Assembly: GCA_017458885.1 (NCBI GenBank)
Contig: JAFSZQ010000085.1
Span: forward strand, 1 to 8,369
Length of the DNA stretch: 8,369 nt
Source: Oscillospiraceae bacterium
GTDB taxonomy: Bacteria; Bacillota; Clostridia; Oscillospirales; Oscillospiraceae
Reading direction: 5' to 3'
Shown: piece after piece, positions 828 through 5,244 of the stretch
How the letters are laid out: each line of letters begins with the position of its first letter
Position numbering within the stretch: the stretch's first letter is position 1
Program-made: the position numbers and the translations under genes
Notes under the pieces: model-generated
The model's input: only the letters and a program-made list of their open reading frames with translations
Database searches by the model: none
Told to the model about the DNA's origin: nothing

Positions 828-860
828 AAAAAGAGCGGCGTATGTGCCGCTCTTTCCTTT
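828..860 (+). terminator. Rho-independent terminator of the phosphate transporter gene
   Basis: A perfect 10-bp stem pairs 830-839 (AAAGAGCGGC) with 846-855 (GCCGCTCTTT) around a 6-base loop. A pyrimidine/T-rich tail (TTTCCTTT) follows. It lies just after the stop at 815-817 and separates the transporter gene from the next cassette. The T tract is interrupted by CC, so efficiency may be partial. Confidence 0.8.
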
Positions 861-862
861 GT

Positions 863-899
863 CAATACATTGCCGTAATTTTTTTGCGGCAATGTATTG
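863..899 (+). repeat. Perfect 13-bp inverted repeat upstream of the ATPase gene
   Basis: Bases 863-875 (CAATACATTGCCG) are the exact reverse complement of 887-899 (CGGCAATGTATTG). The 11-base spacer contains seven T in a row. The right arm is followed by TATTTTTG. Two readings fit. It could be a second terminator in tandem with the one at 828-860. It could also be an operator, because the right arm runs into a possible -35 element at 897-902 for the downstream pair. The sequence alone does not decide between them. Confidence 0.7.
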
Positions 900-925
900 T
901 ATTTTTGCGTGGGATGTGGCATACT
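897..925 (+). promoter_or_regulatory. Possible promoter of the ATPase-TOPRIM pair
   Basis: TTGTAT at 897-902 and CATACT at 920-925 are spaced by 17 bases. They match the sigma-A hexamers at 3 of 6 and 4 of 6 positions, so this is a weak promoter candidate. It is the best one I see between the upstream terminator and the ATPase start. Its -35 overlaps the right arm of the 13-bp inverted repeat. Confidence 0.4.
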
Positions 926-936
926 GTCCTTGAAAA

Positions 937-943
937 GGGGAGG
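937..943 (+). promoter_or_regulatory. Ribosome binding site fixing the ATPase start at 953
   Basis: GGGGAGG ends 9 bases before the ATG at 953. It supports this start over an in-frame ATG at 824, which lies before the terminator hairpin and would add 43 residues with no family resemblance. Confidence 0.8.
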
Positions 944-952
944 ATCGCTGCG

Positions 953-2059
953 ATGTTGACAAAATTCAGCGTGGAAAATTTTAAGGCGTTTCCCGGCAAG
1001 CTCACGCTTGACTTGGGCAGGTCTGGGAATTATGAGTTCAACACCGAGGTCATTCGAAACGGGGTCGTCGATAAGGCCGTTTTATACGGCTTCAACGGCA
1101 GCGGAAAGAGCGCCCTGGGGCTTGCGCTGTTCGACATCACCATACACCTGACGGACTGGACGTGGATACGGGAATCGTATGAGCCGTATCACAATCTGGA
1201 CAATCCCGCCGGGCAGCCGGTCGCCTTTGCATACAGCTTCCTCTTTGACGGGACGGAGGTCGTCTATCGTTACGAAAAATCGGACGCGGAGACGCTGCTG
1301 TCCGAGACGCTGCTGATCGGCGGCAGAGAGGTGCTGCGATACGACTTCCTGACGCACGCCGGATACGTCGGCTTGGAGGGCGCGGAAACGCTGGACCTCG
1401 CCGCGGAGGACAGCCAGATATCCCGCGTGAAATATGTCCGGCGCAACGGGATATTGCGCGCGAACCGCGAGACGGAGGCATTCAAGAGCTTCATTGACTT
1501 TGTCGATCGGATGCTGCTGTTCTATTCGCTGGACAAGAACAAATACCAGGGCTTCAAGGGCGGCTCGGACAGCGTGGGCGCCTCCATCATCAAAGCCGGA
1601 AAGACAAAGGAATTCGAGGCGTTTTTGCAGGAAAACAACATCCGCATCCGGCTGGAGGAGAAGGATGTGGACGGGGAGAAAAAGCTGGTTGCCCGCTATC
1701 AGAACAGGGATTTCCCCTTTTTCCGCATCATCTCGACCGGCACAAAGGCGCTGACGATCTTCTACTACTGGTATATCAAGATGGAAGAGGCGTCGTTCGT
1801 TTTCATGGACGAGTTCGACGCATTTTACCATTTCGAGCTGGCGGAGAGCGTCGTGAAGACGGTCAGGCGGTTGCCGGGCACGCAGGTCATCCTGACCACG
1901 CACAACACCGACCTGTTGAGCAACGACCTGCTGCGGCCGGACTGCTTTTTCTGGCTGGACGAGGGACGCATATCGCCCCTGTGCGACCTGACGGAAAAGG
2001 AGCTGCGCAGGGCGCACAACCTGCAAAAGATGTTCAAGGCGGGTGCGTTCCGTGGCTGA
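953..2059 (+). CDS. AAA15/COG1106-type ABC ATPase, RloA/AriA-like, probable defence component
   Basis: This 368-residue soluble ATPase has the layout of the AAA15/AAA21 (COG1106) branch of ABC ATPases. The N-terminal strand is LTKFSVENFKAF. Walker A is GFNGSGKS (46-53). A roughly 200-residue insert covers the middle. The ABC-signature-like motif is STGTKAL (261-267), Walker B is FVFMDEFDAFYH (282-293, with D286 and E287), and the switch histidine is H317 in TTHNTDLL. All ATP-binding and hydrolysis motifs are intact. Relatives in RloA, PARIS AriA and OLD proteins sense phage and control a TOPRIM nuclease; this protein has no TOPRIM of its own, but the overlapping next gene appears to supply one. 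At 368 residues it is on the short side for the group. Codon use is unlike its neighbours: 16 of the first 53 codons end in A or T. The ATPase call is firm; the defence role is inferred from family and pairing. Confidence 0.85.
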   Translation: MLTKFSVENFKAFPGKLTLDLGRSGNYEFNTEVIRNGVVDKAVLYGFNGSGKSALGLALFDITIHLTDWTWIRESYEPYHNLDNPAGQPVAFAYSFLFDGTEVVYRYEKSDAETLLSETLLIGGREVLRYDFLTHAGYVGLEGAETLDLAAEDSQISRVKYVRRNGILRANRETEAFKSFIDFVDRMLLFYSLDKNKYQGFKGGSDSVGASIIKAGKTKEFEAFLQENNIRIRLEEKDVDGEKKLVARYQNRDFPFFRIISTGTKALTIFYYWYIKMEEASFVFMDEFDAFYHFELAESVVKTVRRLPGTQVILTTHNTDLLSNDLLRPDCFFWLDEGRISPLCDLTEKELRRAHNLQKMFKAGAFRG

Positions 2060-2894
2060 TAAAAAGCAGATCGCGGTGATCGTCGAGGGCGAGAAGCGGG
2101 AGCTCGACTACTGGGACTCGCTTGCGCCGGTCTTCTTTCCCAAAACGGACGTGGAGGTGCTGCCCCTGCCGCTCCATGAGAACATCTATATGCTCTACGG
2201 GGAGCTGGCGGCGGACGGCGACCTCGACGTCGTCGAGGTCGTGCGGGAGCGGAGCGCGGAGGCGGGAAGGGCGCTGGAGGGGAAGACGCGGAAAAGCTTT
2301 CAGGAGGTCTACCTGTTCCTCGACTTCGACCCGCACGCCTACGAGCGGAATATCAAAAAGACCTGCGCGAAGACCATGACCGAGATCGTCGAGGAGATGC
2401 TGTCGTTCTTCGACAATGAGACCGAGCAGGGCAAGCTCTACATCAGCTACCCGATGTGCGAGGCGCTGCGCGACGGACACAAGGCGAGCTGCGCGGCGCA
2501 TTACCGATGCGTTCTCCCGCTCGAGGAGGCGGGCGACTACAAGCGCCTGTCAAGCGACGGCAATCCATTCGCGTCCAAGCCGATCCATACATACACGGAG
2601 GGGCATTGGGAGCACTTCTGCGCGGCGTACCTGCACAAATACCGCTGCCTGCGCGGGGAGGACGTCCCGCCGGAGCAGCTCTACCTGTGGTACAAGCGGG
2701 AGGAGCAGACGCCGCTGGACGTTTTCCAAAGAGAGCGCGCGCTGCTCGAGCGGAGCGGCGGGATATTCGTCATCAGCGCGTTTCCCGAATTCCTGCTGGA
2801 TTATTTCAAGGAAAGCCGCTGGAGCGGTATGCTCGGGCGGCTTACGGGTATCGCACGGGACTGCCGCGGCAAAGACAAGGACGGAAGCGAGTAG
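2052..2894 (+). CDS. TOPRIM-like protein resembling RloB, probable nuclease partner of the ATPase
   Basis: This 280-residue protein shows a TOPRIM-like pattern. After a short beta strand comes IAVIVEGEKRELDYW (acidic residues E12 and E14). Next is VYLFLDFDPH (D91 and D93, the DxD motif), then LYISYPMCEALRDG (129-142). The last resembles the 'nP.fE' segment after the core of RloB-family proteins. In TOPRIM nucleases the early Glu and the DxD bind metal for phosphodiester cleavage. The C-terminal ~130 residues (for example ISAFPEFLLDYF, 241-252) match nothing I recognise. I chose the GTG at 2052 because AGGCGG sits 9 bases upstream. A GTG at 2043 is possible but has no spacing for a binding site. 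The gene overlaps the ATPase end by 8 bases, so the two are probably translationally coupled. DUF4435/AriB of PARIS is an alternative family. The nuclease call is inference. Confidence 0.65.
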   Translation: MADKKQIAVIVEGEKRELDYWDSLAPVFFPKTDVEVLPLPLHENIYMLYGELAADGDLDVVEVVRERSAEAGRALEGKTRKSFQEVYLFLDFDPHAYERNIKKTCAKTMTEIVEEMLSFFDNETEQGKLYISYPMCEALRDGHKASCAAHYRCVLPLEEAGDYKRLSSDGNPFASKPIHTYTEGHWEHFCAAYLHKYRCLRGEDVPPEQLYLWYKREEQTPLDVFQRERALLERSGGIFVISAFPEFLLDYFKESRWSGMLGRLTGIARDCRGKDKDGSE

Positions 2895-2909: not shown

Positions 2910-4190
2910 TCAGCGTTGATATTCGAATTGCAGCCCGTACAGATCCACCGTGTCGCCGTCCTGCACGCCGCGCTCCTCAAGCAGGGCGAACACGCCGTTG
3001 TCGCGCAGCGCCTTGTCGAAGAACATCCGGCTCTCGTAGTCGGAGAAGTTGACGTTCGCCATCAGCCGCTCCAGCCACTTGCCCGCGACGTACCACACGC
3101 CGTCCGCGTGCTCGATCTCCAGCGGCTCGTCCGCGTCCGGCGTCGGCGGGCGCGGGACGTAGGTCGGCTCGTAGACCGTCACCGGCGGCAGCGTCGCGAG
3201 CTTTTCCGCGACGGCGCGCACCAGCTCGCGCGTGCCGACGTGGCTCGCGGCGGAGATGGGGAAGACGGGGATGCCCAGCGGCTCCACGTGCGCGCGCAGG
3301 GCGTCGAGCAGGCGCTCGTCCGTCATGACGTCGGTCTTGTTCGCGACGACGAGCTGCGGACGCCGCGCCAGCTCCGGCGACCAGTGCGCAAGCTCCGTGT
3401 TGATCGCGTCGAAGTCCGCGGCGGGGTCGCGCCCCTCGCTGCCCGACACGTCCACGACGTGCACGAGCAGGCGGCAGCGGTCGATGTGGCGCAGGAAGTC
3501 ATGCCCCAGGCCCGCGCCCTCGCTCGCGCCCTCGATGATGCCCGGGATGTCCGCGAGGACGAAGCTCGTCTCCTCGTCCACATATACGACGCCGAGGTTG
3601 GGGAAGAGCGTGGTGAAATGGTAGTTCGCGATCTTCGGCTGCGCCTTGCTGACGACGGAGAGCAGCGTCGACTTGCCGACGTTCGGGAAGCCGATCAGCC
3701 CCACGTCCGCGAGCAGCTTCAGCTCGAGGATCACGTCGCGCGCCTCGCCCTCGAGCCCCGCCTTGGCGAAGCGCGGCACCTGCCGCGTGGGGGTCGCGAA
3801 GTGGGCGTTGCCCCAGCCGCCGCGCCCGCCCTTGCAGAGCACGAACGGCTCGCCGCCGGACATATCCTGAATGATCTCGTTCGTCTCCGCGTCGCGCACG
3901 AGCGTCCCGCGCGGCACGCGGATGACGAGCGGCTTGCCGCCCTTGCCGTTGCGCCGCGCGCCCTGTCCGTCCGCGCCGTTCTCGGCGGCGTATTTGCGCT
4001 TGTAGCGGAAGTCCATCAGCGTGGACAGGTTGTCGTCCACCTGCAGGACGACGCTGCCGCCCGCGCCGCCGTCGCCGCCGTCGGGGCCGCCCGCGGCGAC
4101 GTACTTCTCGCGGTGGAACGCGACGGCGCCGTTGCCGCCCTTGCCGGCGCGGACGCTGATGCGCGCGGTGTCGATGAAGGATGCTGGCAT
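2910..4190 (-). CDS. obgE: GTPase Obg/CgtA
   Basis: This is an essential-class, ribosome-associated GTPase of 426 residues, acting in 50S assembly and stress or growth control. The N-terminal Obg fold (about 1-158) has the glycine-rich stretches expected (RAGKGGNGAVAFHREK, GGPDGGDGG). The G domain is complete: G1 GFPNVGKST (167-175), switch region FTTLFPNLG (192-200), G3 DIPG (214-217), G4 NKTD (284-287) and G5 SAAS (313-316). The C-terminal OCT domain (about 345-424) ends GVQDGDTVDLYGLQFEYQR, so the protein is the three-domain form found in Firmicutes. The ATG at 4190 has GGAGG 6 bases upstream. It is the last gene of the rplU-prp-rpmA-obgE cluster, but a strong terminator lies between rpmA and its ribosome binding site. 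It runs convergently into the defence-like pair. Confidence 0.97.
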   Translation of the reverse strand: MPASFIDTARISVRAGKGGNGAVAFHREKYVAAGGPDGGDGGAGGSVVLQVDDNLSTLMDFRYKRKYAAENGADGQGARRNGKGGKPLVIRVPRGTLVRDAETNEIIQDMSGGEPFVLCKGGRGGWGNAHFATPTRQVPRFAKAGLEGEARDVILELKLLADVGLIGFPNVGKSTLLSVVSKAQPKIANYHFTTLFPNLGVVYVDEETSFVLADIPGIIEGASEGAGLGHDFLRHIDRCRLLVHVVDVSGSEGRDPAADFDAINTELAHWSPELARRPQLVVANKTDVMTDERLLDALRAHVEPLGIPVFPISAASHVGTRELVRAVAEKLATLPPVTVYEPTYVPRPPTPDADEPLEIEHADGVWYVAGKWLERLMANVNFSDYESRMFFDKALRDNGVFALLEERGVQDGDTVDLYGLQFEYQR

Positions 4191-4242: not shown

Positions 4243-4527
4243 TTACTCCTCGGCGGGGTAGACGCAAGCCTGCTTGCGGTCCTTGCCGAGCCGCTCAAAA
4301 CGGAGCACGCCGCTCTCCTTGGCGTAGAGCGTATCGTCGGAGCCGATGCCGACGTTCACGCCCGGGTGGATGCGGGTGCCGCGCTGGCGCACGAGGATGT
4401 TGCCCGCGAGAACGTGCTGCCCGTCCGCGCGCTTGAGACCGAGGCGCTTGGACTTGGAATCGCGGCCGTTCTTGGTCGAGCCCATACCTTTTTTATGGGC
4501 AAAAAACTGAAGACCGATGTTCAGCAT
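4243..4527 (-). CDS. rpmA: Ribosomal protein L27 (bL27) with Prp-cleaved N-terminal extension
   Basis: This 94-residue large-subunit protein sits near the peptidyl transferase centre. The body shows the L27 hallmarks [29 protein letters not shown] and [16 protein letters not shown]. The N-terminus [14 protein letters not shown] is the Firmicutes-type extension. In Staphylococcus aureus the equivalent LQFF/A bond is cut by the Prp protease, which here would release residues 1-9 and leave Ala10 as the mature start. The protease gene is the next gene upstream. The ATG at 4527 has AAAGGA 11 bases upstream, and the gene begins 32 bases after the prp stop. A strong terminator follows the stop. Confidence 0.97.
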
Positions 4528-4559
4528 GATTGGTGCCGTCCTTTCTGTAGAATGAGGCG

Positions 4560-4889
4560 TTACGCCTCCAAAACTTCGATGTGGTCGGGATATTCTTCGC
4601 GCAGCTCCGCGCAGTAGAGCATGAGCCCCGACAGGAGCCCCTGCACCGCGTGCTCGTCCCGCTCGGACAGCCCGCCGGGGACGCGGAGCGAGATGGAGCC
4701 GGACTTTTCGCGCACCTTGACCGACGCGGAGAGCCCGAAGACGTCGTTGACGACGACCTCAGTCAGCCGCACGGCGCTCGTGACGGCGGCGCAGACGATG
4801 TCCTTGCCGACCTCCGCGAAGCCGCTGTGCCCCTCGACGTCGAAGCCCGTGATGCGCTTTCCCTCTGTGAGGAACGTGAACGTAGTCAT
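4560..4889 (-). CDS. prp: Ribosomal-processing cysteine protease Prp (YsxB family)
   Basis: This 109-residue protein matches the Prp/YsxB family in length and motif order. The segment [21 protein letters not shown] carries the expected catalytic pair, His21 (in GHS) and Cys33 (in DIVCAA). Prp removes the N-terminal extension of L27, and its location between rplU and rpmA is the conserved one in Firmicutes. The target motif is present in the L27 encoded just downstream. The ATG overlaps the rplU stop by one base (TGATG), which points to coupled translation with L21. Confidence 0.95.
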
Positions 4890-5200
4890 CAGACGCTGAT
4901 CTTGCCGATCTCGACCTTGGTATAGGGCTGGCGATGACCTTGGCGTTTGCGGTATCCCTTCTTGGGGAGATACTTGAAGACGCGGATCTTCTTGGCCTTA
5001 CCGTTCTTGACGACCTTGGCGGAGACGCTCGCGCCCGCCACGGTGGGAGCGCCGAACTTCGTGTTCTCGCCGTCCACGACGGCAAGCACCTCGTCGAAGG
5101 TCACCTCGTCGCCCGCCTCGGCGGGCAGCTTCTCGATAAACAGCGTGTCGCCCTCCGCGACGCTGTACTGCTTACCGCCGGTAACGATGATAGCCTGCAT
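4889..5200 (-). CDS. rplU: Ribosomal protein L21 (bL21)
   Basis: This 103-residue large-subunit protein binds 23S rRNA. The start [12 protein letters not shown] and the C-terminal motif [18 protein letters not shown] (about 77-94) are diagnostic. I place the start at the ATG at 5200 because GAGGTG lies 6 bases upstream and the product then has the normal L21 length. An in-frame GTG at 5209 would add three residues and overlap that binding site. It is the first gene of rplU-prp-rpmA, 83 bases downstream of the likely transcription start. Confidence 0.97.
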
Positions 5201-5244
5201 GTGTTGCACCTCTTTCCTTTAGTACGGACTCGCTCTCGGGGGCG

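Follow-up and report, generated by a model that had tools for sequence, protein, structure and literature searches.

The window analysed here is the whole 8369-base stretch of contig JAFSZQ010000085.1, from a draft Oscillospiraceae genome of 0.92 Mb that is 64% complete, and our subject is a pair of genes that lies between an nptA-like gene (1-822) and obgE (2910-4190), both neighbours being named from their reading frames. Gene A encodes an ATPase, gene B encodes a predicted nuclease of the RloB/TOPRIM type, and an operator-like palindrome stands ahead of both. The initial annotation had described 953-2894 as a candidate anti-phage cassette of two genes overlapping by 8 bases, and this arrangement was confirmed, with the ATPase gene at 953-2059 and the second gene running from GTG 2052. 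That span omits the palindrome at 863-899 and the promoter. The features of the locus are as follows:

863..899, no strand: operator-like palindrome with 13-bp perfect arms and an 11-base A/T-rich centre (arm search and sequence)
873..889, no strand: 17-bp core CCGTA-N7-TGCGG of the palindrome, one mismatch from the family consensus CCGTA-N7-TACGG (comparison with relatives)
897..925, plus strand: candidate promoter, -35 TTGTAT (897-902), 17-bp spacer, -10 CATACT (920-925) (read from the sequence)
937..943, plus strand: Shine-Dalgarno-like GGGGAGG ahead of the ATPase start (read from the sequence)
953..2059, plus strand: gene A, PDC-M12A; AAA_21 ATPase of Rad50/SMC-head type, AbiLi-like; 368 amino acids, ATG 953 to stop 2059 (profile matches)
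2006..2056, plus strand: C-terminal tail of the ATPase, residues 352-368 (conservation and monomer model)
2052..2059, plus strand: 8-base overlap of genes A and B (overlap counts in relatives)
2052..2894, plus strand: gene B, PDC-M12B; predicted RloB/TOPRIM-type nuclease, 280 amino acids, GTG 2052 start (profile matches)
830..855, plus strand: terminator-like hairpin with a 10-bp stem after the upstream nptA-like gene (read from the sequence)

In a species-level genome collection, gene B had 188 relatives, of which the best 80 were kept as loci. The ATPase gene lay directly upstream of gene B in 78 of these 80, and the remaining two (L029 and L069) start at a contig edge. Both the number of homologues and the adjacency of the ATPase gene are far beyond chance, and the two genes are found together across genomes, as had been proposed for checking. 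Their overlap was scored in 84 pairs, comprising the window, the 78 loci and five named records, with the start nearest to an 8-nt overlap taken where there was a choice; it measured 8 nt in 43/84 and 11 nt in 25/84, and some overlap was present in 76/84. The overlap probably reflects translational coupling of A and B.

A palindrome accompanies the pair in most of its relatives. Gene A is preceded by at least 200 nt in 81 loci (the 84 pairs minus L015, L031 and L061). Among these, CCGTA-N7-TACGG was perfect in 45 upstream regions and had at most one mismatch in 58. Random windows of the same loci (1512) gave no perfect copy and seven with at most one mismatch, and 1620 shuffles gave neither a perfect nor a one-mismatch copy. 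After one region was kept per group of similar upstream regions, 38 of the 74 remaining were perfect and 51 had at most one mismatch. Tallied by host phylum from the record titles, with titles not otherwise listed counted as Bacillota, the perfect copies comprised 26 in Bacillota, nine in Pseudomonadota plus one in a phage, six in Bacteroidota, and one each in Actinomycetota, Spirochaetota and Delongbacteria; the copy in an archaeal metagenome-assembled genome has one mismatch. The C/G ends of the palindrome were kept at 93-100%. A promoter was recognisable in 40 of the 58 loci, and its -35 element begins 6 bp past the palindrome in 27 of them and 5 bp past it in six. The window core lies 7 bp before the -35 TTGTAT, a spacing that fits the relatives; TTGTAT-17-CATACT was not listed by a stricter promoter scan of the window. 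In addition, 14/58 loci have a second half-site, TRCRG, at exactly +22 bp and 6/58 have it at -22 bp, with every other offset seen at most twice; this spacing is consistent with a protein that binds one face of the helix. The 13-base arm of the window palindrome has no other copy in the 0.92 Mb of the source genome.

The same site was seen in viral sequences. An ATPase search of virus contigs yielded 14 loci, of which 13 have upstream DNA, with 12 perfect copies and one carrying a single mismatch. This set is partly redundant, as the upstream regions of L299-L302 are 99-100% identical to that of L008, L303 likewise matches L014, and L307-L309 are mutually identical; six upstream regions are distinct and new, five with a perfect copy and one with a mismatch. 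Loci of RloB/AbiLii gave no perfect palindrome and two one-mismatch copies in 41, although just 17 of these include an ATPase start preceded by 150 nt. No earlier report of an operator at this pair was found in a limited literature search. Upstream of the pair in L053, L058, L012 and L026, a variant occurs in which both half-sites are altered together (xTGTA...TACAG), as would be expected if a dimer reads both halves.

The pair was found in at least six bacterial phyla. Besides the 188 species-genome relatives, gene B has relatives in 14 plasmid records and three phage records, including E. coli and Raoultella plasmids of 4.0-4.4 kb, Acinetobacter and Pectobacterium plasmids, and Vibrio filamentous phage records. 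On the small E. coli and Raoultella plasmids L104 and L105, the pair is the main cargo and has a degenerate operator with two mismatches; the L104 plasmid has four annotated genes, namely the pair, mobA and a replication gene, and of the ~4 kb plasmids carrying the pair one was typed as mobilizable and one was not. A Vibrio filamentous phage record (L107:6884-8750) holds the pair with a perfect operator, its ATPase bearing the annotator's label 'Paris_II AAA_21', and the Acinetobacter plasmid record L313 appears to contain one ~12.4 kb unit twice over, which may reflect a dimer or an artefact of assembly. Closer to the window, gene B is missing from all 17 other genomes of the genus and present in 2 of the 60 genomes compared, the source genome included. 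The GC content at third codon positions is 81 in gene A and 86 in gene B, compared with about 95 in nptA and obgE. Carriage on plasmids and phages, patchy presence in the genus and a third-position GC content below that of the neighbours suggest that the pair is an accessory and mobile module. Its insertion is not datable by an empty site, because nptA and obgE lie on separate contigs in the 16 genus relatives in which both were found.

Gene B is intact, and its product matches PADLOC PDC-M12B with E 8.2e-60 over profile positions 7-245 of 251. An alternative start at GTG 2043 gives 283 amino acids, and the residue numbers used here follow this longer frame, those of the initial annotation being three lower. 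A total of 425 homologues were found at E <= 1e-3, and the window protein was aligned with the best 119 of them; all 120 match PADLOC M12B. Residues E15, G16, D94, E126, G130, S135, Y136, P137, M138, E140 and K167 are invariant in this alignment. The acidic TOPRIM pattern first read from the window had been given as E12/E14 and D91/D93. Of these positions, E15 and D94 (formerly E12 and D91) hold throughout, position 96 (formerly 93) is D in 115 proteins and E in 5, and position 17 (formerly 14) is E in just 81/120, so that a catalytic role for E17 is unlikely on conservation grounds. S135, P137 and E140 had not been named. The approximately 130 C-terminal residues that had been set apart as unrecognised are conserved across the family, with W189, C202, S245, A246 and Y254 invariant, and they do not stand out as a special part of this protein.

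A TOPRIM-type site has a glutamate after strand 1 and a DxD motif after strand 3 of an alpha/beta core. In the structure model of B (predicted local distance difference test, pLDDT, 91; predicted template-modelling score 0.90), E15 follows strand 8-14, D94/D96 lie at the end of strand 88-94, and S135/E140 lie at or after strand 130-136, an order of strands and motifs that agrees with this definition. Foldseek and VIA searches with the model returned no confident match to any solved structure, TOPRIM included, and AriB, RNase M5 and OLD were not among the 50 VIA matches listed. The best viral model match was an RloB-like phage protein (E 2.9e-3, template-modelling scores 0.38/0.48), and no solved RloB-family structure came up in a sequence search. 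At the profile level, a comparison of B with 24 RloB/AbiLii proteins from other genomes (hhalign) gave 92.6% and E 4.4e-7 over 109 columns, and all 59 column-shuffled control profiles gave E 0.09 or worse, which upholds the RloB-like segment noted in the initial annotation. The EG...E..Y, DxD and S-x(4)-E blocks of RloB align with B, whereas the C-terminal half of B does not. The window protein scored 12.3 bits against RloB PF13707, below the cut-off of 31.5, and 42/120 aligned B proteins matched this family at E 0.1 or better (best 1.3e-6). These comparisons indicate that B is a remote member of the RloB superfamily with its acidic residues aligned. The TOPRIM assignment is predicted from the motifs, the strand order and the RloB profile match; the protein may cut nucleic acid, which by analogy with AriB would perhaps be tRNA.

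Gene A is likewise intact, with an AAA_21 match of 71.6 bits (cut-off 27) and a PADLOC PDC-M12A match of E 8.7e-140 over profile positions 1-368 of 369. In an alignment of 56 ATPases (the window and 55 relatives), the Walker A residues G46, N48, G51 and K52, the Walker B residues D286/E287, H317, and the signature-like S261 and G263 are invariant. The C-terminal tail retains R352, H355, N356, K359 and F366 in invariant form, yet its final ten residues have pLDDT <50 in the monomer model. We infer that residues 352-368 are likely a partner-binding tail, and the DNA that encodes them (2006..2056) likely also holds the ribosome site of gene B. In one relative, L051:5728-7990, gene B is preceded by a tandem of two ATPase genes of this family (226 and 457 bits).

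These matches place the pair among known and candidate defence systems. Both proteins match PDC-M12, a PADLOC-DB candidate with components M12A and M12B, over nearly their full length, with the same two genes side by side; on profile evidence, the pair is a member of PDC-M12. The suggestion that it might be undescribed therefore falls, as PADLOC already lists it. The name PDC-M12 was not found in the literature searched, and the PDC class stems from a 2024 preprint, as cited in PMC12988326; the operator-like site and the map of nuclease motifs are additions to that listing. AbiL of Lactococcus, described as a plasmid-borne abortive-infection relative (PMC10440598), is also a two-gene system with an RloB-like second protein. 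The window ATPase matches AbiLi (PDLC02335) with E 3.2e-36, whereas B had no match to AbiLii (PDLC02337) at E 1, and 9/120 aligned B proteins matched it at E 0.01. PARIS likewise combines an ATPase with a separate Toprim-type protein, its rule being an AAA_15 or AAA_21 ATPase together with DUF4435, that is AriB (PMC9122126). The AAA_21 match of the window ATPase clears the PARIS threshold of 27, and its sequence weakly matches the solved AriA (E 4.6e-4). However, PARIS membership was rejected, since B has no PF14491 (DUF4435) match at E 1; a thin test, the profile comparison of B with four DUF4435 proteins, was not significant. An OLD nuclease was rejected as well, with no PF20469 match at E 1 and a nonsignificant hhalign comparison with OLD C-terminal parts (E 0.1). 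Thus, of the kinship with RloAB, PARIS and OLD proposed at the outset, the split ATPase and RloB/TOPRIM-type architecture stands and the PARIS and OLD assignments do not; by these profiles, the pair is not a strict member of AbiL, RloB, PARIS or OLD. The TOPRIM_OLD:AAA pairs of NetFlax (nodes D44/D60 with D29) show a similar pairing, compared here by description and not by sequence, and the portions of PMC10440598 examined mention neither an operator nor autoregulation for them.

We addressed which protein might read the palindrome by clustering frames of at least 50 codons within about 2.5 kb on either side of the pair. No neighbour family recurred in more than 8 of the 80 loci, and a Pfam scan of 73 neighbours of at least 110 codons found HTH_3 in just two. 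Regulators near the pair include a helix-turn-helix gene in L105, a LysR-type gene in L106 and a putative regulator gene in L107, whose names point to no one shared kind. Given hosts from different phyla and the lack of a neighbour common to them, A, B or an A-B complex likely binds the palindrome, and the system would regulate itself; profile searches recognised no DNA-binding domain in A or B. The survey of neighbouring defence genes proposed at first covered 37 loci, with 148 near and 107 far genes, of which 73 near and 72 far were scanned with PADLOC; on each side, the gene scanned was chosen manually from the nearest two and was the second-nearest in about a dozen cases. At E 1e-10, near and far neighbours matched 41 and 40 PADLOC families, respectively (families tallied, not proteins), so that this comparison did not separate near from far genes.

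Several observations weigh against an operator that belongs to the pair. Fourteen of the 81 loci carry three to four mismatches and apparently have no operator or a diverged form. Of the 81 exact copies in virus contigs, 72 lie away from the pair, 38 of them inside frames of at least 120 codons, so the palindrome alone does not predict the system. The A/T-spaced form was present in 6 of 398 genomes from the phylum, compared with 23 for the reversed control (row count), and none of those six genomes has the pair within 1.5 kb. From this rarity, together with the copies elsewhere in virus contigs, we concluded that the palindrome does not mark a host regulon in that phylum and has meaning only at this operon.

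We propose, with moderate confidence, that this mobile ATPase and RloB/TOPRIM-type module is an autoregulated, toxin-antitoxin-like abortive-infection system. The ATPase would keep the predicted nuclease B in check, and the A-B complex would repress its own promoter via the 17-bp palindrome; a phage signal, with infection as the presumed trigger, would free B, which would kill or stall the infected cell. Precedents exist for parts of this scheme. In PARIS, AriA is described as sequestering AriB, a two-metal Toprim nuclease, until a phage protein frees AriB and tRNA is cut (PMC12409363), and RloB-like and OLD-Toprim toxins are reported to be neutralised by paired AAA ATPases in E. coli (PMC10440598). 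By analogy with such systems, a role of the pair in phage defence is plausible. More tentatively, the ATPase-TOPRIM complex may itself be the DNA-binding repressor that reads CCGTA-W7-TACGG (W, A or T) and the half-sites phased at 22 bp. If so, DNA occupancy and nuclease arrest would be two outputs of one complex, and a phage protein acting as a DNA mimic, or one dislodging the complex, would derepress the operon and at the same time arm the nuclease; the pair would then be an OLD/RloB-type defence system with its own operator, portable across phyla. How ATPase and Toprim defence pairs spare their own host is a live question, for which the PARIS answer is sequestration (PMC12409363). A cis-site that travels with the pair in Clostridia, Bacteroidota, Proteobacteria, a spirochaete and a filamentous phage suggests built-in control of expression. 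The palindrome could serve as a DNA probe to capture the protein that binds it and as a reporter of the trigger, and the 4 kb E. coli plasmids with PDC-M12 are an easy entry point.

Alternatively, the pair might be a PARIS-like sensor and effector without autoregulation, the palindrome being read by a host regulator or acting as an UP element, an A/T-rich sequence that boosts a promoter. The split ATPase and Toprim-type architecture is that of PARIS, and the A/T centre of the palindrome sits at roughly the distance from the -35 expected of an UP element. However, an UP element leaves the strongly kept C/G ends unexplained, and a host regulator would have to be common to hosts ranging from Bacillota to Bacteroidota, Pseudomonadota and Spirochaetota, with its site almost absent elsewhere in the 398 genomes of the phylum. 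Thus, we regard this alternative as unlikely.

A distinctly less probable explanation is that the pair is a toxin-antitoxin module for plasmid or prophage stability, one retained because it maintains itself, with phage defence not its main role. Such a module would suit the ~4 kb plasmids of which the pair is nearly the sole cargo, as well as the carriage on filamentous phage, and the predicted toxin B is indeed lost more often than the ATPase. Among 93 pairs uncut by contig ends, with model coverage below 0.9 counted as poor, an intact A stood beside a poor B in 11 and the reverse was seen in one (L311). The 11 include L307-L309, which share a single sequence with a coverage of 0.89 that looks intact, and L044 at 0.88; B is broken or gone beside an intact ATPase in 7 loci (8 with L044), with the provisos that assembly errors are possible and that most loci were found via B, which works against this result. 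The virus contig L306:3001-5275 retains an intact ATPase and a perfect operator with only the first codons of B, an ATPase-only remnant. On the other hand, the 188 species-genome relatives, on contigs that may be chromosomal or not, far outnumber the 14 plasmid and three phage records, and AbiL and PARIS, of like architecture, are described as acting against phages (PMC10440598, PMC9122126).

Finally, a very improbable reading takes the palindrome as an intrinsic terminator or RNA hairpin: the window copy is long-armed and scores as terminator-like, and a few relatives are long-armed too, but the listed copies mostly lack both long arms and a following T-run, the half-sites recur at 22 bp, and in 27 of the 40 recognisable promoters the palindrome lies at one fixed distance upstream of the -35 and hence outside the main transcript, a position for which this was rejected as a general explanation.

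Elsewhere in the window, Rfam gave no match at gathering scores. Positions 4243-5209 hold a YsxB/Prp-like gene flanked by the ribosomal protein genes rplU and rpmA, the names coming from reading frames without a family scan. Prp removes an N-terminal extension of L27, and the L27 encoded in the window has this extension, LQFFA-HKKG.
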